Assembly: GCA_031273825.1 (NCBI GenBank)
Contig: JAISRB010000064.1
Coordinates: forward strand, 1 to 34,125
Length of the DNA stretch: 34,125 nt
Reading direction: 5' to 3'
Origin: Clostridiales bacterium
Lineage (GTDB): Bacteria > Bacillota > Clostridia > Christensenellales > JAISNN01
Shown one piece after another: positions 2,575 through 27,461 of the stretch. The position numbers were made by a program, and so were the translations under genes. Positions within the stretch are counted from its first letter, which is position 1. Every line of letters starts with the position of its first letter. Under the pieces are notes generated by a model. It saw nothing but the letters and a program-made list of their open reading frames with translations, was not told where the DNA came from and did no database searches.

Positions 2575-2864
2575 GCGTTTTTTTAAAGGCGCGGCATCTT
2601 AAAATTTTTTTTGCGAAACGATATACCCGTTGTGTTTTTATCGGCTTGTATTTTATCGGCGCGTTATCCTAAAATTTCCTTGCGGCATATTATGTATCAG
2701 CCATATATCGTTAAATTTTTGGCTTTCATTTATTTTGGCGGCTAAAGACGTTGATTTTTTGCGGCGGCTTTTGACGAAACGACCCGCCGTATATAGATGA
2801 AACACGCTTTTACATTTTAGTCGTTTGTGTAAAGATGAAAAAAATAAAAAAGAAGGGGATTATT
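2575..2864. other. Gene-free leader region of the collagen-like gene
   Basis: These ~290 bases (about 360 from the previous stop codon) contain no supported ORF. TTGACG at 2771-2776 is followed by TATAGA or TAGATG, but the spacing (15-17) and match are poor, so no promoter is called with confidence. If the collagen-like gene is developmental (spore surface), the promoter may belong to an alternative sigma factor that I cannot recognise by eye. Confidence 0.4.
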
Positions 2865-4832
2865 ATGAGCAATAAGTTTTCAAATGGTTGCGACGGTTAT
2901 GATCGGTCGACTTACGGAAGTTGCTTAAATTTCACGTCCGACAGCCGTTGTTACGATTCCGATTGCCGTCGTGAGCCGGAATGCGGGCGCGGTCCGCGAG
3001 GCTTGACGGGACCGCGCGGTCCTGCCGGCCCGGCGGGGCAGACCGGCGGCCCCGGGCCTATGGGACAAAGAGGCCCGGCAGGCTCGCCCGGTCCGACGGG
3101 ACCTATAGGACCCGCCGGCCCTATAGGCTTGACCGGCCCGGTCGGCCCGACGGGCGCGACCGGACCTACGGGTTCGATAGGCCCGATAGGCCCGGCAGGC
3201 GCGACCGGCGCGACGGGTCCGATAGGCCCGGCCGGCCCGACGGGCGCGACGGGCGCGGTAGGCCCTGAAGGCCCGGCCGGAGCGAGAGGCCCGGCGGGGC
3301 CTATAGGACCGACCGGCACGATAGGCCCGGTAGGGCCGCAAGGAGCGCAAGGTCCGGTCGGCCCGCAGGGAGCGGCCGGCGCGACCGGAGCGGCAGGCCC
3401 GGCCGGCCCTATAGGCCCGGCGGGCGCGACGGGTGCGACCGGCGCGGCGGGAGCGACGGGCGCGCCCGGGGCGACGGGGGCGACGGGGGCGCAAGGTCCT
3501 GCGGGCGCGGTAGGGCCGGCCGGCCCTATAGGACCTGCCGGCGCGACGGGCGCGACCGGCGCGACGGGAGCTATAGGCCCGGCCGGCCCCGCAGGATCTA
3601 TAGGTCCTGCCGGAGCGGCCGGCGCAACCGGCCCGATAGGCCCGGCGGGGCCTGCGGGCTCGACGGGCGCGATAGGTCCGGAAGGCCCTGTCGGCCCGAT
3701 AGGCCCCGCCGGTCCTACGGGGGCGACGGGCGCGACGGGCGCGGTAGGCCCGGCGGGTCCGATAGGCGCGACGGGAGCGACGGGAGCAACGGGGCCGATA
3801 GGCCCTACGGGACCTGCGGGCGCGACGGGCGCGATAGGTCCCGAAGGCCCGGTAGGCCCGGCCGGACCGGCCGGCGCGACGGGCGCGACGGGGGCGACGG
3901 GGGCGACGGGCGCGATAGGCCCGGCAGGCCCTATAGGCGCGACGGGAGCGACGGGTCCGATAGGCCCGGCGGGGCCTGCCGGAGCTACGGGCGCGATAGG
4001 CCCGGCAGGTCCGGTAGGCCCCGCTGGCGCGGTAGGCCCTATAGGCCCGGCCTGCCCCGCGGGACCTATCGGCGCGACGGGAGCGACCGGCGCGCAAGGC
4101 CCTATGGGACCCGCGGGTCCTGCCGGCGCGACGGGAGCGACGGGAGCGCAAGGCCCTGCCGGCGCGACGGGGGCGACGGGAGCGACCGGCGCGACCGGAG
4201 CAACCGGCGCGACCGGCGCGCAGGGAACTCCCGGACTAAACGGCGCGGCGGGCGCGCAAGGCCCTATGGGGCCTCAAGGCCCGCAGGGAATTCAAGGTCC
4301 CGTCGGGCCTCAAGGTCCGCAAGGTCCTCCGGGTCCTCCCGGCGTCATTCGCGCCGCGGGAGAGAGCGGCTCGTCGCTTTTGCTCAGAACGGAAAATTTG
4401 GAGGGAGATACGGTCGATTTGCCGGTGAGAAAGGCCTACGAGGCATACGGCTTCGGGCTTGAGAGTCAGGGGCAGTCTTACGACGTTAGCGTCGACGGCG
4501 TAATTTTGGAAATATACAGATCGGGATCGGCGTTGAGGACGCGGATTAAGCCGGTTAACGCAAGCGCGTCGGCAAAGGCCGTGGACTTCAGGGCTACGCT
4601 AAGCTCGGGCAATTCCGCCGCCGCGGCAAGCGAGACGGCCGAGGGCTTGACGCTCGCGTCCGGCTCGGCTATCGACATCGGCGTAGAAATCGTCGGAGGC
4701 TTCGGCTCGGTTTTTGAAATATTGCTGCGCGTCACCGACCTTCCGACAAATCAAATATCGATAAGCAACGTTCGCATCGTCAAGGACGGCGCGTTCAAAA
4801 ACGTAGTTGTTTTGATAGACCGAATAGTTTGA
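2865..4832 (+). CDS. Collagen-like surface protein (151 Gly-X-Y triplets)
   Basis: With the start at 2865 (AGAAGGGG at 2851-2858, better than the ATG at 2835) the protein has 655 residues. Residues 1-42 have no signal peptide but five cysteines (around NGC, GSC, SRC, SDC and PEC). Residues 43-495 are 151 consecutive Gly-X-Y triplets, rich in GPIGPAG, GATGAT and GPQGPQ. One triplet has Cys for Gly (codon TGC at 4053-4055). Residues 496-655 form a non-collagen globular domain rich in beta-prone segments that probably seeds trimerisation; I do not recognise its family. Bacterial collagen-like proteins form triple helices on cell or spore surfaces (for example exosporium filaments of the BclA type). 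The lack of a signal peptide and the Cys-rich N-terminus favour a spore-coat or exosporium role, which is inference. Confidence 0.87.
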
Positions 4833-7778: not shown

Positions 7779-8372
7779 ATGAAAAGCAAGGAAACGGTTT
7801 ATTCTCTGATAAGGCGGCACAAAATAGCCGCCGTGCTCCGCGGCAAGGCCGACGAGGTTTTGGCATCGGCGGAGCGGCTGGTCGGCGCGGGAATCAAGGT
7901 CTTAGAGGTGACGTTTACGGTTTGCGGCGCGGAGGAGATTATCAAAAGCCTTTCCGAAAAATATTCGGGCGGAGATATAACCGTCGGCGCGGGAACGGTT
8001 CTCGACGCGGAGACGGCGCGGCTGGCCATATTAAAGGGCGCGGAGTTTGTAGTGACGCCCGCGGCGGCTATCGACGTAATCAAGGTCTGCAACCGCTATT
8101 CGACGGCGGTAATTCCGGGCGTCGCCACGGCGACGGAGCTTTTGTCGGTTCTCGATTACGGGGCGGACTTCGTCAAGCTGTTCCCCGCGAATATCGGCGT
8201 TTTGAAGGCCTTAAAAGGCCCGTTTCCAAACGTTTCATTTATGGTGACGGGAGGCGTCGGGCTTGACAATCTTTCGGAATGGTTTAAGGCCGGAGCGTCG
8301 GCGGTCGGCGCGGGAAGCAATCTGACGGGCGCGGACGCCGACATAAAAAAATGGATGGAGGCGGTCAAATGA
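7779..8372 (+). CDS. eda: KDPG aldolase (2-dehydro-3-deoxyphosphogluconate aldolase)
   Basis: This class I aldolase cleaves 2-keto-3-deoxy-6-phosphogluconate to pyruvate and glyceraldehyde 3-phosphate, the last step of hexuronate breakdown. The 197-residue length is normal. Residues 40-46 (KVLEVTF) contain the conserved catalytic Glu43, VGAGTVLD is near residue 70, and DFVKLFPA carries Lys133, the Schiff-base lysine at the same number as in the E. coli enzyme. The ribosome site is AAAGGAC. It is the first gene of a four-gene operon and its stop overlaps the kdgK start (ATGA). Confidence 0.95.
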   Translation: MKSKETVYSLIRRHKIAAVLRGKADEVLASAERLVGAGIKVLEVTFTVCGAEEIIKSLSEKYSGGDITVGAGTVLDAETARLAILKGAEFVVTPAAAIDVIKVCNRYSTAVIPGVATATELLSVLDYGADFVKLFPANIGVLKALKGPFPNVSFMVTGGVGLDNLSEWFKAGASAVGAGSNLTGADADIKKWMEAVK

Positions 8373-9394
8373 GTCAAATAGTAACCTTTGGCGAGGTCAT
8401 GATGCGTCTGCAAACGCCTCTTTATAAACGCTTTGCGCAGGCGGACGGCTTTGATATGTGCTTTGGCGGCGGCGAGGCAAACGTCGCGGTAGGGCTTGCG
8501 GGTTTCGGCGCGGACGCGGCTTTTTTTAGCAAGCTGCCCGAAAACGAGCTTGCCGACGCGTGCGTCGCGGCCTTAAAGGCGCGCGGCGTGGAGACGCGTT
8601 TTTTGTTGCGCGGCGGCGAGAGAATGGGCATATATTTTTGCGAAAAGGGAGCGGCTCAGCGTCCGAGCAAGATAATATACGACCGAAAAGGCTCGAGTAT
8701 AAACGACATAAGCGAGGACGAAATCGACATAGAGAGGCTGTTTGACGGAACAAAGTGGTTTCACTTTTCGGGAATAACCGCCGCGCTTTCCGAAAAAACT
8801 CTGAACGCGCTGCGTGTTTTGATAGCCGGAGCGAGGGAGAGATGCATAACCGTTTCGTGCGATTTAAACTATAGAAAGAAGCTTTGGTCAAGAGAGAAGG
8901 CAAGAGAGGTCATGACGGAGCTTGTCGGTCTTTGCGACGTTCTCATATCAAACGAGGAGGAATGCAAGGACATATTCGGAATAGAGGCCGCGGGAGCCGA
9001 CATAGACGGCGGCGTGGTAGACCCCGAAGCCTACGCGGGGCTTGCGGCGGCTTTGAGAAAAAAATTTAAAAATCTGACGGCGATAGCCTTTACTCTGAGA
9101 ACCAGCGTCTCCGCGAGCGTCAACCGCTGGGCGTGCATACTTTCGACAAAGGACGGTTGCTTTGTCTCCAAGCGTTATGAGATAAACATAGTCGACAGGA
9201 TAGGCGCGGGCGACAGCTTTTCGGCGGGGCTGATTTTTAGCCTGCTCAACAAAAAAAGTCCGCGTGAGGCCGTCGAGTTTGCGGCGGCGGCGTCTTGTCT
9301 CAAGCACACCGTCGAGGGCGACTTTAGCATAGCGACGGCAGAGGAGGTCGAGGCTCTAATAAAGAGCGGCGGCGGCGGGAGAGTGCAAAGATGA
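8369..9394 (+). CDS. kdgK: 2-keto-3-deoxygluconate kinase (PfkB family)
   Basis: The enzyme phosphorylates 2-keto-3-deoxygluconate to KDPG with ATP, feeding Eda encoded just upstream. I set the start at ATG 8369 (product MSQIVTFGEVMMRL, GGAGG eight bases upstream, ATGA overlap with eda) rather than the earlier ATG at 8351. The 341-residue protein shows the PfkB N-terminal FGGGEANVAVGLAGFG sugar-binding glycine stretch. VSCDLNYRKKLW is in the middle, and DRIGAGDSFSAGLIF holds the anion hole and catalytic Asp near residue 285. It overlaps uxaC by 4 nt. The family contains other sugar kinases, but the operon context settles the assignment well. Confidence 0.92.
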   Translation: MSQIVTFGEVMMRLQTPLYKRFAQADGFDMCFGGGEANVAVGLAGFGADAAFFSKLPENELADACVAALKARGVETRFLLRGGERMGIYFCEKGAAQRPSKIIYDRKGSSINDISEDEIDIERLFDGTKWFHFSGITAALSEKTLNALRVLIAGARERCITVSCDLNYRKKLWSREKAREVMTELVGLCDVLISNEEECKDIFGIEAAGADIDGGVVDPEAYAGLAAALRKKFKNLTAIAFTLRTSVSASVNRWACILSTKDGCFVSKRYEINIVDRIGAGDSFSAGLIFSLLNKKSPREAVEFAAAASCLKHTVEGDFSIATAEEVEALIKSGGGGRVQR

Positions 9395-10767
9395 GCGCGT
9401 TTATCGAAAACTCAATATTAAAAAGCGCGTCGGCAAAGAAAATTTTTGACGAAATAAAGACGCTTCCCATAATTGATTATCACTGTCATCTTAACGCTAA
9501 GGACATCTATGAGGACAAGCCTTTTTCGGATATCTCCGACGTATGGCTAAAGGGAGACCATTACAAATGGCGGCTCATGCGTCAGGCGGGAATAGACGAG
9601 CGGCTGATAACCGGCGACGCCGACGGCGGCGAAAAATTCGCCGCGTTCGCGTCCGCCGCAGAGCGGGCCTTCGGCAACCCCGTCCGCGATTTTTGCAGGC
9701 TTGAGCTTAGCGCGTATTTTGGCATAGACGAACAGCTGACCATAGACAACGCGGCCGAAATAAGAGCCGCGGCAAACGCCGCGATAGCGCGGCAAGGGCT
9801 TTCGCCGAGAAAGCTTATAGCGCGGTCGGGCGTGGAGTATATCGCTACGACCGACAACCCCTTTGACTCTCTCGAATATCACGCGGCGTTAAAATCGGAG
9901 GGCTTTTTGACCGGGGTCGCGCCGACGTTCCGCGTCGATTCGCTGTTTAATATCGCCAACGCCGAGCAATTCAGGCGCGACGCGCAAAGACTCGCCGAGT
10001 CGTCGTCAGTCGAAATAGACGGCTTTGACGGCTTTTTGGAGGCTATAGAAAGGCGCGCGCGCGATTTTTCCGAGGCCGGCTGCCGGTTTGCCGACATAGG
10101 CATAGAGGGCTTTCCGTCGTCGGTCGGAGAATATTCCGTTGCAAGGTGGATATTCAACCGCGTTTTTGGCGGCGGCTCGATAGAAAGGGGCGGCGCGGAC
10201 GCTTACGTCGGCTATATGTACGTATGGTGGCTCAGGCTCTGCAAAAAATACGGGTTTACGGCGCAGCTTCACATAGGAGCTATGCGCAACGCAAACCGCC
10301 GCGCGTTTGCGCTAAAGGGCGCGGACTGCGGCTTTGACACGGTTGCCGACGGCTTTTCTGCGTCGGCGTTAAAGGATGTTTTAAACGCGGCCGACGGCGG
10401 CGCGGGGCTTCCGCAAATCATAGTTTATACGCTTAATCCGATTATGTACTATCCGCTTTTTACGCTTTGCGGAGCGTTCAAGGGCGTTAGCGTCGGCGCG
10501 CCGTGGTGGTTCAACGATCACAAGCGCGGCATTATCGATTATTTTGACCGCGCGTCGGAGCTTTCGCACATCGGGCGAATTCCCGGAATGCTGACCGACA
10601 GCCGTAGCTTTATGTCTTATGTCAGACACGGATATTTTAGAATGCTCGCCGCCGAATACCTTTCGCGTTTCAAGGGCGAAAAAATCGACGCGCTGATAAA
10701 AACGGCGCGGGATATATCGTATTTTAACATGAAAAAAATAATATCCGGCGGAGGTATAGAGGCGTGA
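9391..10767 (+). CDS. uxaC: Uronate isomerase (glucuronate/galacturonate isomerase)
   Basis: UxaC converts D-glucuronate to D-fructuronate and D-galacturonate to D-tagaturonate. The 458-residue protein belongs to the amidohydrolase-like superfamily. IIDYHCHLNAKDI near residue 30 has the metal-binding HxH, followed by YKWRLMRQAGIDERLITG, a signature stretch of uronate isomerases. ATTDNPFDSLEYH and QLHIGAMRNANRR are further conserved blocks, and PWWFNDHKRGI and GMLTDSRSFMSYVRH close the barrel. The length is normal. Both ends overlap neighbours by 4 nt, so synthesis is coupled to KdgK and UxuA. Confidence 0.95.
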   Translation: MSAFIENSILKSASAKKIFDEIKTLPIIDYHCHLNAKDIYEDKPFSDISDVWLKGDHYKWRLMRQAGIDERLITGDADGGEKFAAFASAAERAFGNPVRDFCRLELSAYFGIDEQLTIDNAAEIRAAANAAIARQGLSPRKLIARSGVEYIATTDNPFDSLEYHAALKSEGFLTGVAPTFRVDSLFNIANAEQFRRDAQRLAESSSVEIDGFDGFLEAIERRARDFSEAGCRFADIGIEGFPSSVGEYSVARWIFNRVFGGGSIERGGADAYVGYMYVWWLRLCKKYGFTAQLHIGAMRNANRRAFALKGADCGFDTVADGFSASALKDVLNAADGGAGLPQIIVYTLNPIMYYPLFTLCGAFKGVSVGAPWWFNDHKRGIIDYFDRASELSHIGRIPGMLTDSRSFMSYVRHGYFRMLAAEYLSRFKGEKIDALIKTARDISYFNMKKIISGGGIEA

Positions 10768-11834
10768 AAATAACCTTTAGGTGGTACGGCGAGGGCGACA
10801 AAATCAGCTTAAGCGACATACGTCAGATTCCTACGGTAGACGGCGTGGTGACGGCGGTTTACGACACCCCCGTCGGCGGCGTGTGGAGCGGGGAGAGCAT
10901 AAAAAAATTGGCCGTCGCGGCGCGTAAAAACGGCGTGCCGTGGGAGGTCGTCGAGAGCGTGCCCGTTCACGAGGATATCAAGCTCGGCCTGCCGTCGGCG
11001 CGGACGTATATCGACAACTACAAGGAAAACCTGCGGCGGCTGTCGGCGGTCGGAATAAAATGCGTGTGCTACAACTTTATGCCCGTGTTTGACTGGCTGA
11101 GGAGCGAGTTAGCCTTTCCCTTAGAGGACGGCTCAAACGCCCTTGCCTACAAGCACGAGAGCGTCGTCGGCATGAATCCGCTTACTTCGGAGCTGTCCTT
11201 GCCGGGGTGGGACGCAAGCTACAAAAAAGACGGGTTAAAGACGCTTTTGACGCGGTATAGAGCCGTCACGGACGAGGTTTTGTGGGACAATCTCAAGGCG
11301 TTTTTGTCGGAGGTTATTCCCGTGGCGGGAGAGTGCGGCATAAAAATGGCTATTCACCCCGACGACCCGCCGTGGGGGATATTCGGACTGCCGAGAATAA
11401 TAACTAATATCGGCAATATCGAGAGGTTTTTGCGCCTTGTCGACGACCCGTACAACGGCATAACGCTTTGCACAGGCTCGCTCGGAGCGGCTAAGGAAAA
11501 CAATTTGACGGATATTATAAAGACGGCTAAGGGGCGCATACCCTTTGTGCACATGCGCAACGTAAAAATCACGGGCGGCCGCGATTTTTGCGAGACGGCT
11601 CACCCGTCGGCCTGCGGAGATATAGATATGTACGCCGTCTTAAAGGCTCTTCTCGACGGCGGCTTTGACGGCTACGTCAGACCCGATCACGGCAGAATGA
11701 TTTGGGGCGAAAGCGGCAGACCGGGCTACGGGCTTTATGACCGCGCGCTCGGCGCGGCGTATATAGGCGGACTATACGAGGCCTTGACAAAGTCGGACTC
11801 TCGGGACAAACGCATGAAAATGCGTTTGCCCTGA
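10764..11834 (+). CDS. uxuA: Mannonate dehydratase
   Basis: UxuA dehydrates D-mannonate to 2-keto-3-deoxygluconate, the substrate of KdgK. The 356-residue protein begins KITFRWYGEGDKISLSDIRQ, typical of the family. It contains CYNFMPVFDW, MAIHPDDPPWGIFGLPRI (metal ligands His and Asp) and GSLGAAKENN, then HMRNVK and YVRPDHGRMIWGE. It starts with GTG at 10764, overlapping the uxaC stop. The tail after GGLYEAL is unusual: the last residues, KRMKMRLP, are encoded by the second copy of the hairpin repeat at 11803-11831. Fructuronate reductase (UxuB), needed between UxaC and UxuA, is not encoded in this operon. Confidence 0.95.
   Translation: MKITFRWYGEGDKISLSDIRQIPTVDGVVTAVYDTPVGGVWSGESIKKLAVAARKNGVPWEVVESVPVHEDIKLGLPSARTYIDNYKENLRRLSAVGIKCVCYNFMPVFDWLRSELAFPLEDGSNALAYKHESVVGMNPLTSELSLPGWDASYKKDGLKTLLTRYRAVTDEVLWDNLKAFLSEVIPVAGECGIKMAIHPDDPPWGIFGLPRIITNIGNIERFLRLVDDPYNGITLCTGSLGAAKENNLTDIIKTAKGRIPFVHMRNVKITGGRDFCETAHPSACGDIDMYAVLKALLDGGFDGYVRPDHGRMIWGESGRPGYGLYDRALGAAYIGGLYEALTKSDSRDKRMKMRLP
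11803..11831. repeat. Hairpin repeat copy 2, at the 3' end of uxuA
   Basis: CAAACGCAT (11807-11815) pairs perfectly with ATGCGTTTG (11820-11828) around GAAA. After a bulged A at 11806 the stem continues GGG/CCC (11803-11805 with 11829-11831). Positions 11809-11830 are identical to 7669-7690. Unlike copy 1, the element is read through in frame and contributes the UxuA C-terminus, with the TGA immediately after it. Confidence 0.8.
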
Positions 11835-24474: not shown

Positions 24475-25116
24475 ATGAAAGGTCAAAACGACGCAAAAAA
24501 AGTTTCGGAGGCGGTGATAAAGCGGCTTCCACGCTATTTGAGAGTCTTTAAGGACTTGATAAAACGCGGAGTTATGAATATTTCTTCTCAAAAAATAGCC
24601 GAAAGCATGGGCGTCACCGCGTCGCAGGTCAGGCAGGACTTTTGCAGCTTCGGCGGCTTCGGACAGCAGGGCTACGGCTATGACGTAAAAAAAATGACCG
24701 ACGAGCTGTCGCAAATCTTAGGGCTTGACAAAAGCTATAATATGGTCATATTCGGGGCGGGCAACATAGGGCGCGCGCTCGCCAACTACCGCGCCTTTTT
24801 TGACGAGGGCTTTGTCGTTAAGGCCATGTTTGATATCGCGCCGCAGGGCGGGGAAATAAACGGAATCCCCGTTTTGCATACCGACTGCTTCGCCGAATTT
24901 GCAAGCCGCAACGCGGTGGACATAGCCGTCATAACCACCCCTAAGGACAAGGCGGAAAAAATAGCCGAGCTTGTGACCGCCGCCGGAATAAAAAACATCT
25001 GGAATTTTGCCCCCGTCGAGCTAAAGGGCGCGGAGGGCGTAATAATCGAAAATATCAGTATGAGCGACAGCCTGTACGTTTTGAGCTACAAGCTGAACAA
25101 CCGCGTCAAGGAATAG
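24475..25116 (+). CDS. rex: Redox-sensing transcriptional repressor Rex
   Basis: Rex binds NAD(H) and releases DNA when the NADH/NAD ratio rises, derepressing fermentation genes. The 213-residue protein has an N-terminal winged helix (KRLPRYLRVFKDLIKRG, SSQKIAESMGVTASQVRQD, FGGFGQQGYGYDV) and a Rossmann domain (MVIFGAGNIGRALANY, then AMFDIAPQGG). A C-terminal swap helix is near residues 190-213. Length and motifs are complete. The ribosome site is GGGGAA. I saw no Rex operator (TTGTGA-type palindrome) in the window by eye, so its targets lie elsewhere. The next gene follows 7 nt after its stop. Confidence 0.95.
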   Translation: MKGQNDAKKVSEAVIKRLPRYLRVFKDLIKRGVMNISSQKIAESMGVTASQVRQDFCSFGGFGQQGYGYDVKKMTDELSQILGLDKSYNMVIFGAGNIGRALANYRAFFDEGFVVKAMFDIAPQGGEINGIPVLHTDCFAEFASRNAVDIAVITTPKDKAEKIAELVTAAGIKNIWNFAPVELKGAEGVIIENISMSDSLYVLSYKLNNRVKE

Positions 25117-25123
25117 GAAGGTA

Positions 25124-26353
25124 ATGGTTAAAAAATTTAAAATCACCGCAAAAAACGCTTCTTTTATCGCCGTCATGACGGCGTTAATGGCGGTCTTTAT
25201 GTTAATCGCGCCGATATCGCCCATGGTGGCATACGTCGGCTCGGCGATAGTTCCGTTGATAATAATAGCCGTCTCCGCGTCCGCGGAGGGGCTTTTTGCC
25301 GGCGTTGTCATGGGCGCGGTATTTGGTATAATAAGCTTTGCGGGCAGTTTTTTTGTGCCGTCGCTTATGGCCGAATGCTTTCACAATCCGCTGATATCGG
25401 TGTTGCCGCGCGTATTCATCGGCGCGGTCGTCTATTATGCCGGCTTATGGCTTGATAAGGCCGTCAAAAGCAAGAGCAAAAAAGCCGGGTTTGTCAAGAA
25501 TGGTCTGGCCGCCGCCGCCGGCGCGGCGTTTAACACCGCCGCAGTCATGGGGCTTGTCGCGCTGTTTTTCGGCGGAAAAACCGTCGGCTCGGGCGGCGAA
25601 ACCGCGCTTGTCAACGCAAAACTGATTTTGGGCATAGTGGCGGCGAACGGCGGCATGGAATTTTTGGGCGCGTTTATTCTGACGCCGCCGATAGTTTCCG
25701 CGGTTAAAAAAATCAACGGAGCGTCCGCGCTCAAAAAGAGCCGCGAAAACCGCGGTATAGAACCGCCGCCGCCCGACGCTATAAGGGCGCAAAAAGCCGC
25801 GCTAAGAGCCGCGATAAAGCAAAAAGCCGCGGACTTTGCGGCTTCCGGGGCAAAGCCCGCCGCAGACGGACAAATATTCGACGGATTTTTTGAATACGAG
25901 GACGTAAAAACGGCAAGAAATATAATGATATACAAATCTTTTGACAACGAACCCGATACCGGGGCGATAATCGCGGAGCTGTTTGAACGCGGCAAAAACG
26001 TATATTTGCCCGTCTTGCGCGGCGGCGGCATAATAGCCGTACCCGTCGGAAAGGACTCGGTTTACGTCAAAAATCAATACGCGATAGACGAGCCGGTTTT
26101 TGACGAAAACGACGCGCAAGCCGAGGCGCAGGCGCGGTATAGAGCCGCCTTCGACATAGTTGTCGTTCCACTCGTCGCCTTTGACGGCGGCATGAACAGA
26201 TTGGGCAGGGGCAAGGGCTGTTACGACGCGTTTTTGAAGCTGTTGCCGCCGGATACAAAAAAAATCGCGCTCGCATATTCCTTTCAGAGGGTTGCAAAAA
26301 TCCCGACGGAGAAATTTGACGTAAGGATAGACGGGGTCATAGTCGCGGCATGA
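25124..26353 (+). CDS. ECF transporter S component fused to 5-formyltetrahydrofolate cyclo-ligase
   Basis: A single 409-residue ORF holds two proteins. Residues 1-~195 form about six hydrophobic helices with the ECF S-component pattern (AVMTALMAVF at the start, then HNPLISVLPRVFIGAVVYY), which would bind a vitamin and pair with the ECF A/A'/T module. Residues ~215-409 are a full 5-formyl-THF cyclo-ligase: a basic start (IRAQKAALRAAIKQKA), VYLPVLRGGGIIA, IVVVPLVAFD and MNRLGRGKGCYDAFL (ATP loop). It converts 5-formyl-THF to 5,10-methenyl-THF with ATP. The linker (EPPPPDAIRA) is Pro-rich and no separate start codon with a ribosome site is seen. The fusion predicts folate, perhaps 5-formyl-THF, as cargo. 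ECF substrate identity is inference. The ribosome site is GGAAGGT; it overlaps rsmD by 4 nt. Confidence 0.85.
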   Translation: MVKKFKITAKNASFIAVMTALMAVFMLIAPISPMVAYVGSAIVPLIIIAVSASAEGLFAGVVMGAVFGIISFAGSFFVPSLMAECFHNPLISVLPRVFIGAVVYYAGLWLDKAVKSKSKKAGFVKNGLAAAAGAAFNTAAVMGLVALFFGGKTVGSGGETALVNAKLILGIVAANGGMEFLGAFILTPPIVSAVKKINGASALKKSRENRGIEPPPPDAIRAQKAALRAAIKQKAADFAASGAKPAADGQIFDGFFEYEDVKTARNIMIYKSFDNEPDTGAIIAELFERGKNVYLPVLRGGGIIAVPVGKDSVYVKNQYAIDEPVFDENDAQAEAQARYRAAFDIVVVPLVAFDGGMNRLGRGKGCYDAFLKLLPPDTKKIALAYSFQRVAKIPTEKFDVRIDGVIVAA

Positions 26354-26952
26354 GGGTGATAAGCGGAAGCTACGGAGGAAGAAATTTGTTTCTTCCCGAT
26401 ACAAAGGCCGTCAGGCCGACGGGCGGCAGAGCCAAGGAGGCTCTCTTTAGCATATTAGGCGCGGACGTTATGGGAGCGTCGGTTTTAGACCTCTTTTCAG
26501 GGAGCGGCGCGCTCGGAATCGAGGCGTTGAGCAGAGGCGCAAAAAGAGTGGTTTTTGCCGACATAGAGCCGCGCTATATCAAAAAAAATCTCGCCCTTAT
26601 AGGCGAGGAATACGACAAGACGGTTTATTGCGGAGGCGGAGCAAAGAGGAGCGTCGTCATCGGCGGAGCTTACGAGGGGACGCTGTCCCTGCTCGCAAGG
26701 GCGGGCGAGGCGTTTGACATAATATTTTTAGACCCTCCTTATAACGGCGAGCTGGGAGAGTCGGCTATAGCCGGTCTTATAAACGGCGGACTTGTCGCGG
26801 ACGGGGGAAAAATAATATTTGAGCATTCGCGCGATAAAGAGTTGAAAAAATTGCCGGATTGTGCTATCATATATGACGAGAGGCGATACGGAATACAGGC
26901 GTTGTCTTTTATCGCCGTCAAAAAGCAGAGAGACTTTGAGGTGACATTATGA
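26350..26952 (+). CDS. rsmD: 16S rRNA guanine(966)-N2 methyltransferase
   Basis: RsmD methylates G966 of 16S rRNA on the assembling 30S subunit with S-adenosylmethionine. The 200-residue protein has MRVISGSYGGRNL and RPTGGRAKEALFSILG (RNA side). VLDLFSGSGALGIEALSRGA (SAM-binding motif I) and FDIIFLDPPYNGEL (catalytic DPPY) follow. Length is normal. It is joined ATGA to the fused transporter gene and to coaD, the common rsmD-coaD pair of Bacillota. Confidence 0.95.
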   Translation: MRVISGSYGGRNLFLPDTKAVRPTGGRAKEALFSILGADVMGASVLDLFSGSGALGIEALSRGAKRVVFADIEPRYIKKNLALIGEEYDKTVYCGGGAKRSVVIGGAYEGTLSLLARAGEAFDIIFLDPPYNGELGESAIAGLINGGLVADGGKIIFEHSRDKELKKLPDCAIIYDERRYGIQALSFIAVKKQRDFEVTL

Positions 26953-27461
26953 AAACCGCTATGCTGACCGGCAGCTTTGACCCCGTGACAAACGGACACG
27001 TCGAGCTGATAATCAGGGCGCGCAAGATTTTTGACAAGGTCTACGCCGCGATTTTGATAAACCCCGACAAGCTATACCTCCTGACGCTAAAAGAGCGGCT
27101 TGAGCTTTTGCGCTCCGTCATTTGCGGCATAGACGGAGTCGAGGCCGTAGCGTCCGAGGGCACGGCCGCCGCGCTTGCGAGGGCTTGCGGCGTCGATTGC
27201 TTTGTCAGAGGCGTGAGAAACGCCGACGATTATGAATACGAGCGCGTAATGGCGGCTTATAACTATAACGATTGCGGCTTAGATACGGTTTTGTTCGACG
27301 CGGGCGACAGCTATTCGGCGATATCGTCGGCTATGGTAAAAAAACTCGTCAAAGAGGGCAAGTCGATAGAAAACTTCGTTCCGTCGCAGATAAGAGAAAA
27401 ATTTGAAAGGCTTGCCGCCCGGATAAATATCAAAAGCAACAATACCGAAACTAATAGCTAA
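26949..27461 (+). CDS. coaD: Phosphopantetheine adenylyltransferase
   Basis: CoaD adenylates 4'-phosphopantetheine to dephospho-CoA, the penultimate step of CoA synthesis. The 170-residue protein has TGSFDPVTNGHVELI with the T/HxGH nucleotidyltransferase motif, VRGVRNADDYEYERVMA in the middle, and AISSAMVKKLVKEGKSIENFVPSQI at the end, as in the family. The GAGGTGA site lies within the rsmD end. Its length is a little above the usual 160. Confidence 0.95.
   Translation: MKTAMLTGSFDPVTNGHVELIIRARKIFDKVYAAILINPDKLYLLTLKERLELLRSVICGIDGVEAVASEGTAAALARACGVDCFVRGVRNADDYEYERVMAAYNYNDCGLDTVLFDAGDSYSAISSAMVKKLVKEGKSIENFVPSQIREKFERLAARINIKSNNTETNS

Follow-up and report, generated by a model that had tools for sequence, protein, structure and literature searches.

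The only PDB relatives by sequence of the membrane half of the protein reported here are the S components of ECF-PanT from L. brevis (4rfs_S) and L. delbrueckii (6zg3_C), both of which belong to pantothenate transporters (PMC7755397). In the L. brevis protein mutation showed that Arg95, Asn131 and Trp64 are important for pantothenate binding (PMC7755397), and an AxxxA motif in helix 1 of S components serves the docking to EcfT (PMC11109136). PanT is found mostly in vitamin B5 auxotrophs (PMC6593275). The second family involved is the 5-formyl-THF cyclo-ligase (MTHFS or 5-FCL), which recycles 5-formyl-THF, a by-product of serine hydroxymethyltransferase (SHMT) (PMC9426524). Here we describe a gene in which what looks like a PanT-type S component is joined to MTHFS in one protein. 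In the open-access literature searched we found no paper that describes the fusion of an ECF S component with MTHFS or with any enzyme, and this combination of known families is a domain architecture new to us and absent from the literature searched.

The window, that is the whole stretch of 34,125 nucleotides from a Clostridiales bacterium that was analysed, carries the fused gene as one continuous reading frame of 409 codons, which begins with ATG and has AGGAAGG just upstream as ribosome site (Table 1). A sequence-only reading of this DNA had reported an uninterrupted ORF with the motif HNPLISVLPR, the ATP loop GMNRLGRGKGCYD and no internal start, and all of this was found again: both motifs are present, both halves are matched by profiles within the one frame, and there is no in-frame ATG, GTG or TTG between residues 182 and 267, so that the enzyme half has no start of its own. 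In the Pfam search PF01812 matched residues 224–407 above its cut-off (E 7.7e-31) and PF12822 matched residues 15–191 (E 5.3e-7) at 30.3 bits, just below its cut-off of 30.7; in the whole-genome search it scored 33.3 bits, above the cut-off. The MTHFS equivalog TIGR02727 (NCBIfam) reached 122.6 bits against a cut-off of 84.9. The AlphaFold model of the fused protein shows two confident domains (mean pLDDT 86.7), one with the six-helix S-component fold and one a full cyclo-ligase domain, which together with the profiles bears out the proposed ECF S component and complete cyclo-ligase. By equivalog score and fold the second half is a 5-formyl-THF cyclo-ligase, with the corresponding activity predicted. 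The joint at residues 201–212 is disordered, and with a pTM of 0.53 the placement of the two domains relative to each other is undefined. The N-terminus, the cytosolic loop and the C-terminus of the S half are positive as read from the sequence, and this charge pattern would place the enzyme half in the cytosol.

Table 1: The fused gene, its parts and its neighbours; positions refer to the window.
Feature	Position	Strand	Remarks
rex (redox-sensing repressor)	24475..25116	+	ends 7 bases before the fused gene; retained in the genus
Fused gene, PanT-type ECF S component (by likeness) and predicted 5-formyl-THF cyclo-ligase (MTHFS), 409 aa	25124..26353	+	
S-component half, residues 1–204	25124..25735	+	six membrane helices; helix 1 AxxxA = A16–A20
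Linker, about residues 201–221	25724..25786	+	pLDDT <50 at 201–212; no internal start codon
5-Formyl-THF cyclo-ligase half (predicted), residues about 222–409	25787..26350	+	ATP loop NRLGRGKGCYD
rsmD	26350..26952	+	4-base overlap with the stop of the fusion; named by sequence and context
coaD (phosphopantetheine adenylyltransferase; CoA pathway)	26949..27461	+	named by sequence and context

The four genes rex, fused gene, rsmD and coaD form one operon-like run, in which rsmD is an ancestral neighbour of mthfs and coaD one of mthfs-rsmD. Elsewhere the window holds a 665-aa ORF with collagen-like GPxG repeats (2835–4832) and, read by eye, an apparent uronate catabolism cluster with aldolase, sugar kinase, uronate isomerase and mannonate dehydratase (7779–11834).

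Six genomes of the genus were available, the window genome (G000) and G001–G005, and the congener genomes with names are MAGs of 'Clostridiales bacterium'. The fusion is present in four of them (the window genome, G001, G004 and G005) with 43–46% identity, and PF12822 scores 37–42 bits in G001 and G004 and 22.8 bits in G005. As the joined ORF is shared by G001, G004 and G005, a stop lost by sequencing error is unlikely. The two remaining species encode S component and MTHFS as adjacent separate genes: in G002 they overlap by TTGA and the S gene retains a linker-like tail of ~45 residues, and in G003 an expanded low-complexity stretch lies between them. Close relatives therefore do not always encode two proteins, three congeners being fused and two split, and the same joined ORF in four species speaks for a real fusion. 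A conserved linker length had also been expected, but the distances between the two Pfam domains are 32, 48, 54 and about 60 residues. In the trees the split G003 groups with the fused G005 (98–99% with all genes), so that within the genus a split or an additional fusion must have happened at least once. The matches listed from 101 genomes of relatives, 391 of the class and 398 of the phylum include no such fusion beyond the genus, and a match spanning both domains would rank topmost.

Several features bear on the question to which vitamin the S half belongs. A PDB profile search gave only two believable chains, 4rfs_S (2.2e-16) and 6zg3_C (3.2e-12), and the structural match of the S-half model ranks the same two ahead of ThiT and RibU (Z 21.2 and 20.4 versus 13.9 and 12.8); FolT is not on this list, an absence that by itself is no evidence. 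In the alignment R96 and N137 of the fused protein take the places of Arg95 and Asn131 in the L. brevis protein, and Phe67 that of Trp64. Since Phe is also found at this position in most coaX-adjacent relatives and Leu or Met in a few, Trp64 probably does not define PanT in this lineage. The FolT proteins of the genus genomes have Gly at the position of Arg95; the Asn is common to FolT too, and only the Arg separates PanT from FolT. In the phylogenetic tree the S genes of the genus form part of a cluster of the order's S genes, beside coaX-adjacent ones (94/91), and the genome's own FolT and other S components are located outside this PanT-type group (94/94). For the fused protein no TIGR04518 (FolT) match with E ≤1 was listed, and the separate FolT of the same genome reaches 62.8 bits against a cut-off of 60. 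By sequence, fold, tree and residues the S half thus looks like a PanT-type (pantothenate) S component and not like FolT. The FolT-family S components L151, L152 and L153 of the genus carry low-complexity, often repetitive N-terminal extensions of >100 residues.

The gene neighbourhoods point in the same direction. The related S gene of other families in the order immediately precedes coaX (type III pantothenate kinase), with hom as the usual next gene; this was seen in nine of 13 fetched loci of these families with the S gene located by script, and L030, L067, L068, L071 and L072 (Ezakiella peruensis) are further S-coaX loci. The usual order around MTHFS in the order is alr-mthfs-rsmD-coaD: among 50 loci, a count that takes in three S-only loci and a few duplicates, alr is a neighbour in 31, rsmD in 36 and coaD in 31. 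As the S gene is coaX-adjacent in the relatives, is missing in front of coaX-hom in the genus and stands in the place of alr, we infer from these two sets of loci that it moved from coaX to the front of mthfs, replacing alr, and was then joined to it.

The gene content of the genus fits this assignment. PanB and PanC are absent from all six genomes, CoaX is present in all six and EcfT in five of them, so that pantothenate must be imported. The window genome is 89% complete, which makes absences weaker there, and those of PanB and PanC hold in six genomes. HPPK is also absent from all six, each of which carries a FolT-family S gene (above the TIGR04518 cut-off in five), so that folate must be imported as well, through another S component. 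SHMT is encoded in five of the six, the window genome among them, and the fused gene is the sole MTHFS found in this genome. Pantothenate import and removal of the SHMT by-product thus give either half a routine job in its own right. Riboswitches were considered as a cargo clue (e.g., tetrahydrofolate), and there was no Rfam match in the window or the FolT loci.

We consider it probable that a PanT-type S component and MTHFS were joined through their gene neighbourhood and that the two halves act independently. A panT gene would have ended up immediately in front of mthfs in an mthfs-rsmD-coaD operon, after which the reading frames joined. The S half would bind pantothenate outside the cell and dock with a shared EcfT/A module encoded elsewhere, and MTHFS, the cell's only copy, would hang from the cytosolic C-terminus of the S half on a flexible tether and turn 5-formyl-THF back into 5,10-methenyl-THF in the cytosol, the two halves serving different vitamins. 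Three points speak against this: the exchange of Trp64 for Phe, the folate auxotrophy of the genus, as MTHFS could serve imported 5-formyl-THF, and the persistence of the fusion across four diverged species, which is not required of a purely neutral event.

Alternatively, PanT might tether MTHFS at the membrane next to an ECF module that it shares with FolT, which docks there too and releases incoming reduced folates, so that 5-formyl-THF would be converted on arrival. The docking motif is A16-V-M-T-A20 in the fused protein, it is retained in G001 and reads AxxxG in the remaining four congeners. EcfT of the window genome (G000:C16, 155.5 bits) has an ABC ATPase gene just upstream, and in four of the five EcfT-bearing genomes it is a single copy, which is consistent with a shared module. 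A separate FolT and the need to import both vitamins would suit such a tether, but two sister species manage without it and MTHFS is a promiscuous fusion partner. It is fused to Alr in L078:426-2168, uniting the ancestral neighbours alr and mthfs, to FolC in three genomes of two families (L027, L159, L160), to QueH (epoxyqueuosine reductase) in frame in four species of one genus (g220; L161, L162, L163, L165; Pfam check run on L161 and L162), and to a BrkB/YihY-type membrane protein in L164:995-2536, a second membrane-tethered MTHFS. As MTHFS joins readily to any upstream gene, the fusion says little about a shared pathway, and we regard conversion at the docking site as unlikely. The broader idea that the tether was selected, with FolT-delivered folates, or the joint supply of both vitamins, being processed at the membrane and the S component acting as scaffold for the enzyme of another vitamin, appears just as unlikely. 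In the window genome another, unassigned S component gene overlaps a small P-loop kinase gene (L130:2508-3627, G000:C38), perhaps a pair for vitamin uptake and phosphorylation.

A related compound such as pantetheine is quite unlikely as the cargo of the S half, a reading in which the fusion would again be unrelated to folate: the Trp64 exchange and the low identity to the solved PanT chains would allow it, yet the pantothenate kinase gene coaX is the conserved neighbour in the relatives and present in every genus genome. The sequence-only reading had the S half capture reduced folate and pass 5-formyl-THF to the fused cyclo-ligase on entry. Its conserved ECF S–MTHFS fusion with a cytosolic enzyme stands, and folate auxotrophy and the retention in four species agree with it, but its cargo does not hold. 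The S half groups with PanT and its close relatives precede coaX, the genus is without pantothenate synthesis and has a separate FolT-family S component in every genome, the linker is floppy and variable, two species have mthfs as a gene of its own, and elsewhere MTHFS fuses to unrelated neighbours; direct hand-over of folate is thus very unlikely. An assembly error, or a chain cut in the linker after synthesis, could be suspected from the disordered linker and the split genes of G002 and G003, but either is extremely unlikely; four species, each assembled separately, share the joined ORF.

A gene fusion therefore need not imply a shared substrate: read off the fused enzyme the cargo suggests a folate transporter, and read off sequence, neighbourhood and gene content it suggests pantothenate. 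As a natural, ready-made membrane-tethered MTHFS the protein also offers a system for testing whether S components can still dock and topple with 20 kDa of cytosolic cargo attached.

Compared with ECF-PanT of L. brevis (4RFS) and L. delbrueckii (6ZG3), the S half is alike in its six-helix fold, in NPLIxxLPR, in the pantothenate-site residues Arg and Asn and in the helix 1 AxxxA, which aligns with AVFVA of 6ZG3. It differs in its identity of about 22–27%, in Phe instead of Trp64, in the added C-terminal enzyme and in its location at mthfs-rsmD-coaD instead of coaX. FolT (TIGR04518) is an S component as well and occurs in the same genomes, but as a separate gene without NPLIxxLPR and the Arg and outside the PanT group of the tree. 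With bacterial MTHFS/5-FCL (TIGR02727; 2JCB, human 3HY6) the enzyme half shares the complete domain (Z 23.9 to 2jcb_A and 23.5), the ATP loop and the rsmD-coaD neighbours seen elsewhere in the order, whereas its N-terminus is joined to a membrane protein. As in the other MTHFS fusions, MTHFS is C-terminal and in frame with the upstream protein, but there the upstream partner is a different enzyme or a different membrane protein.
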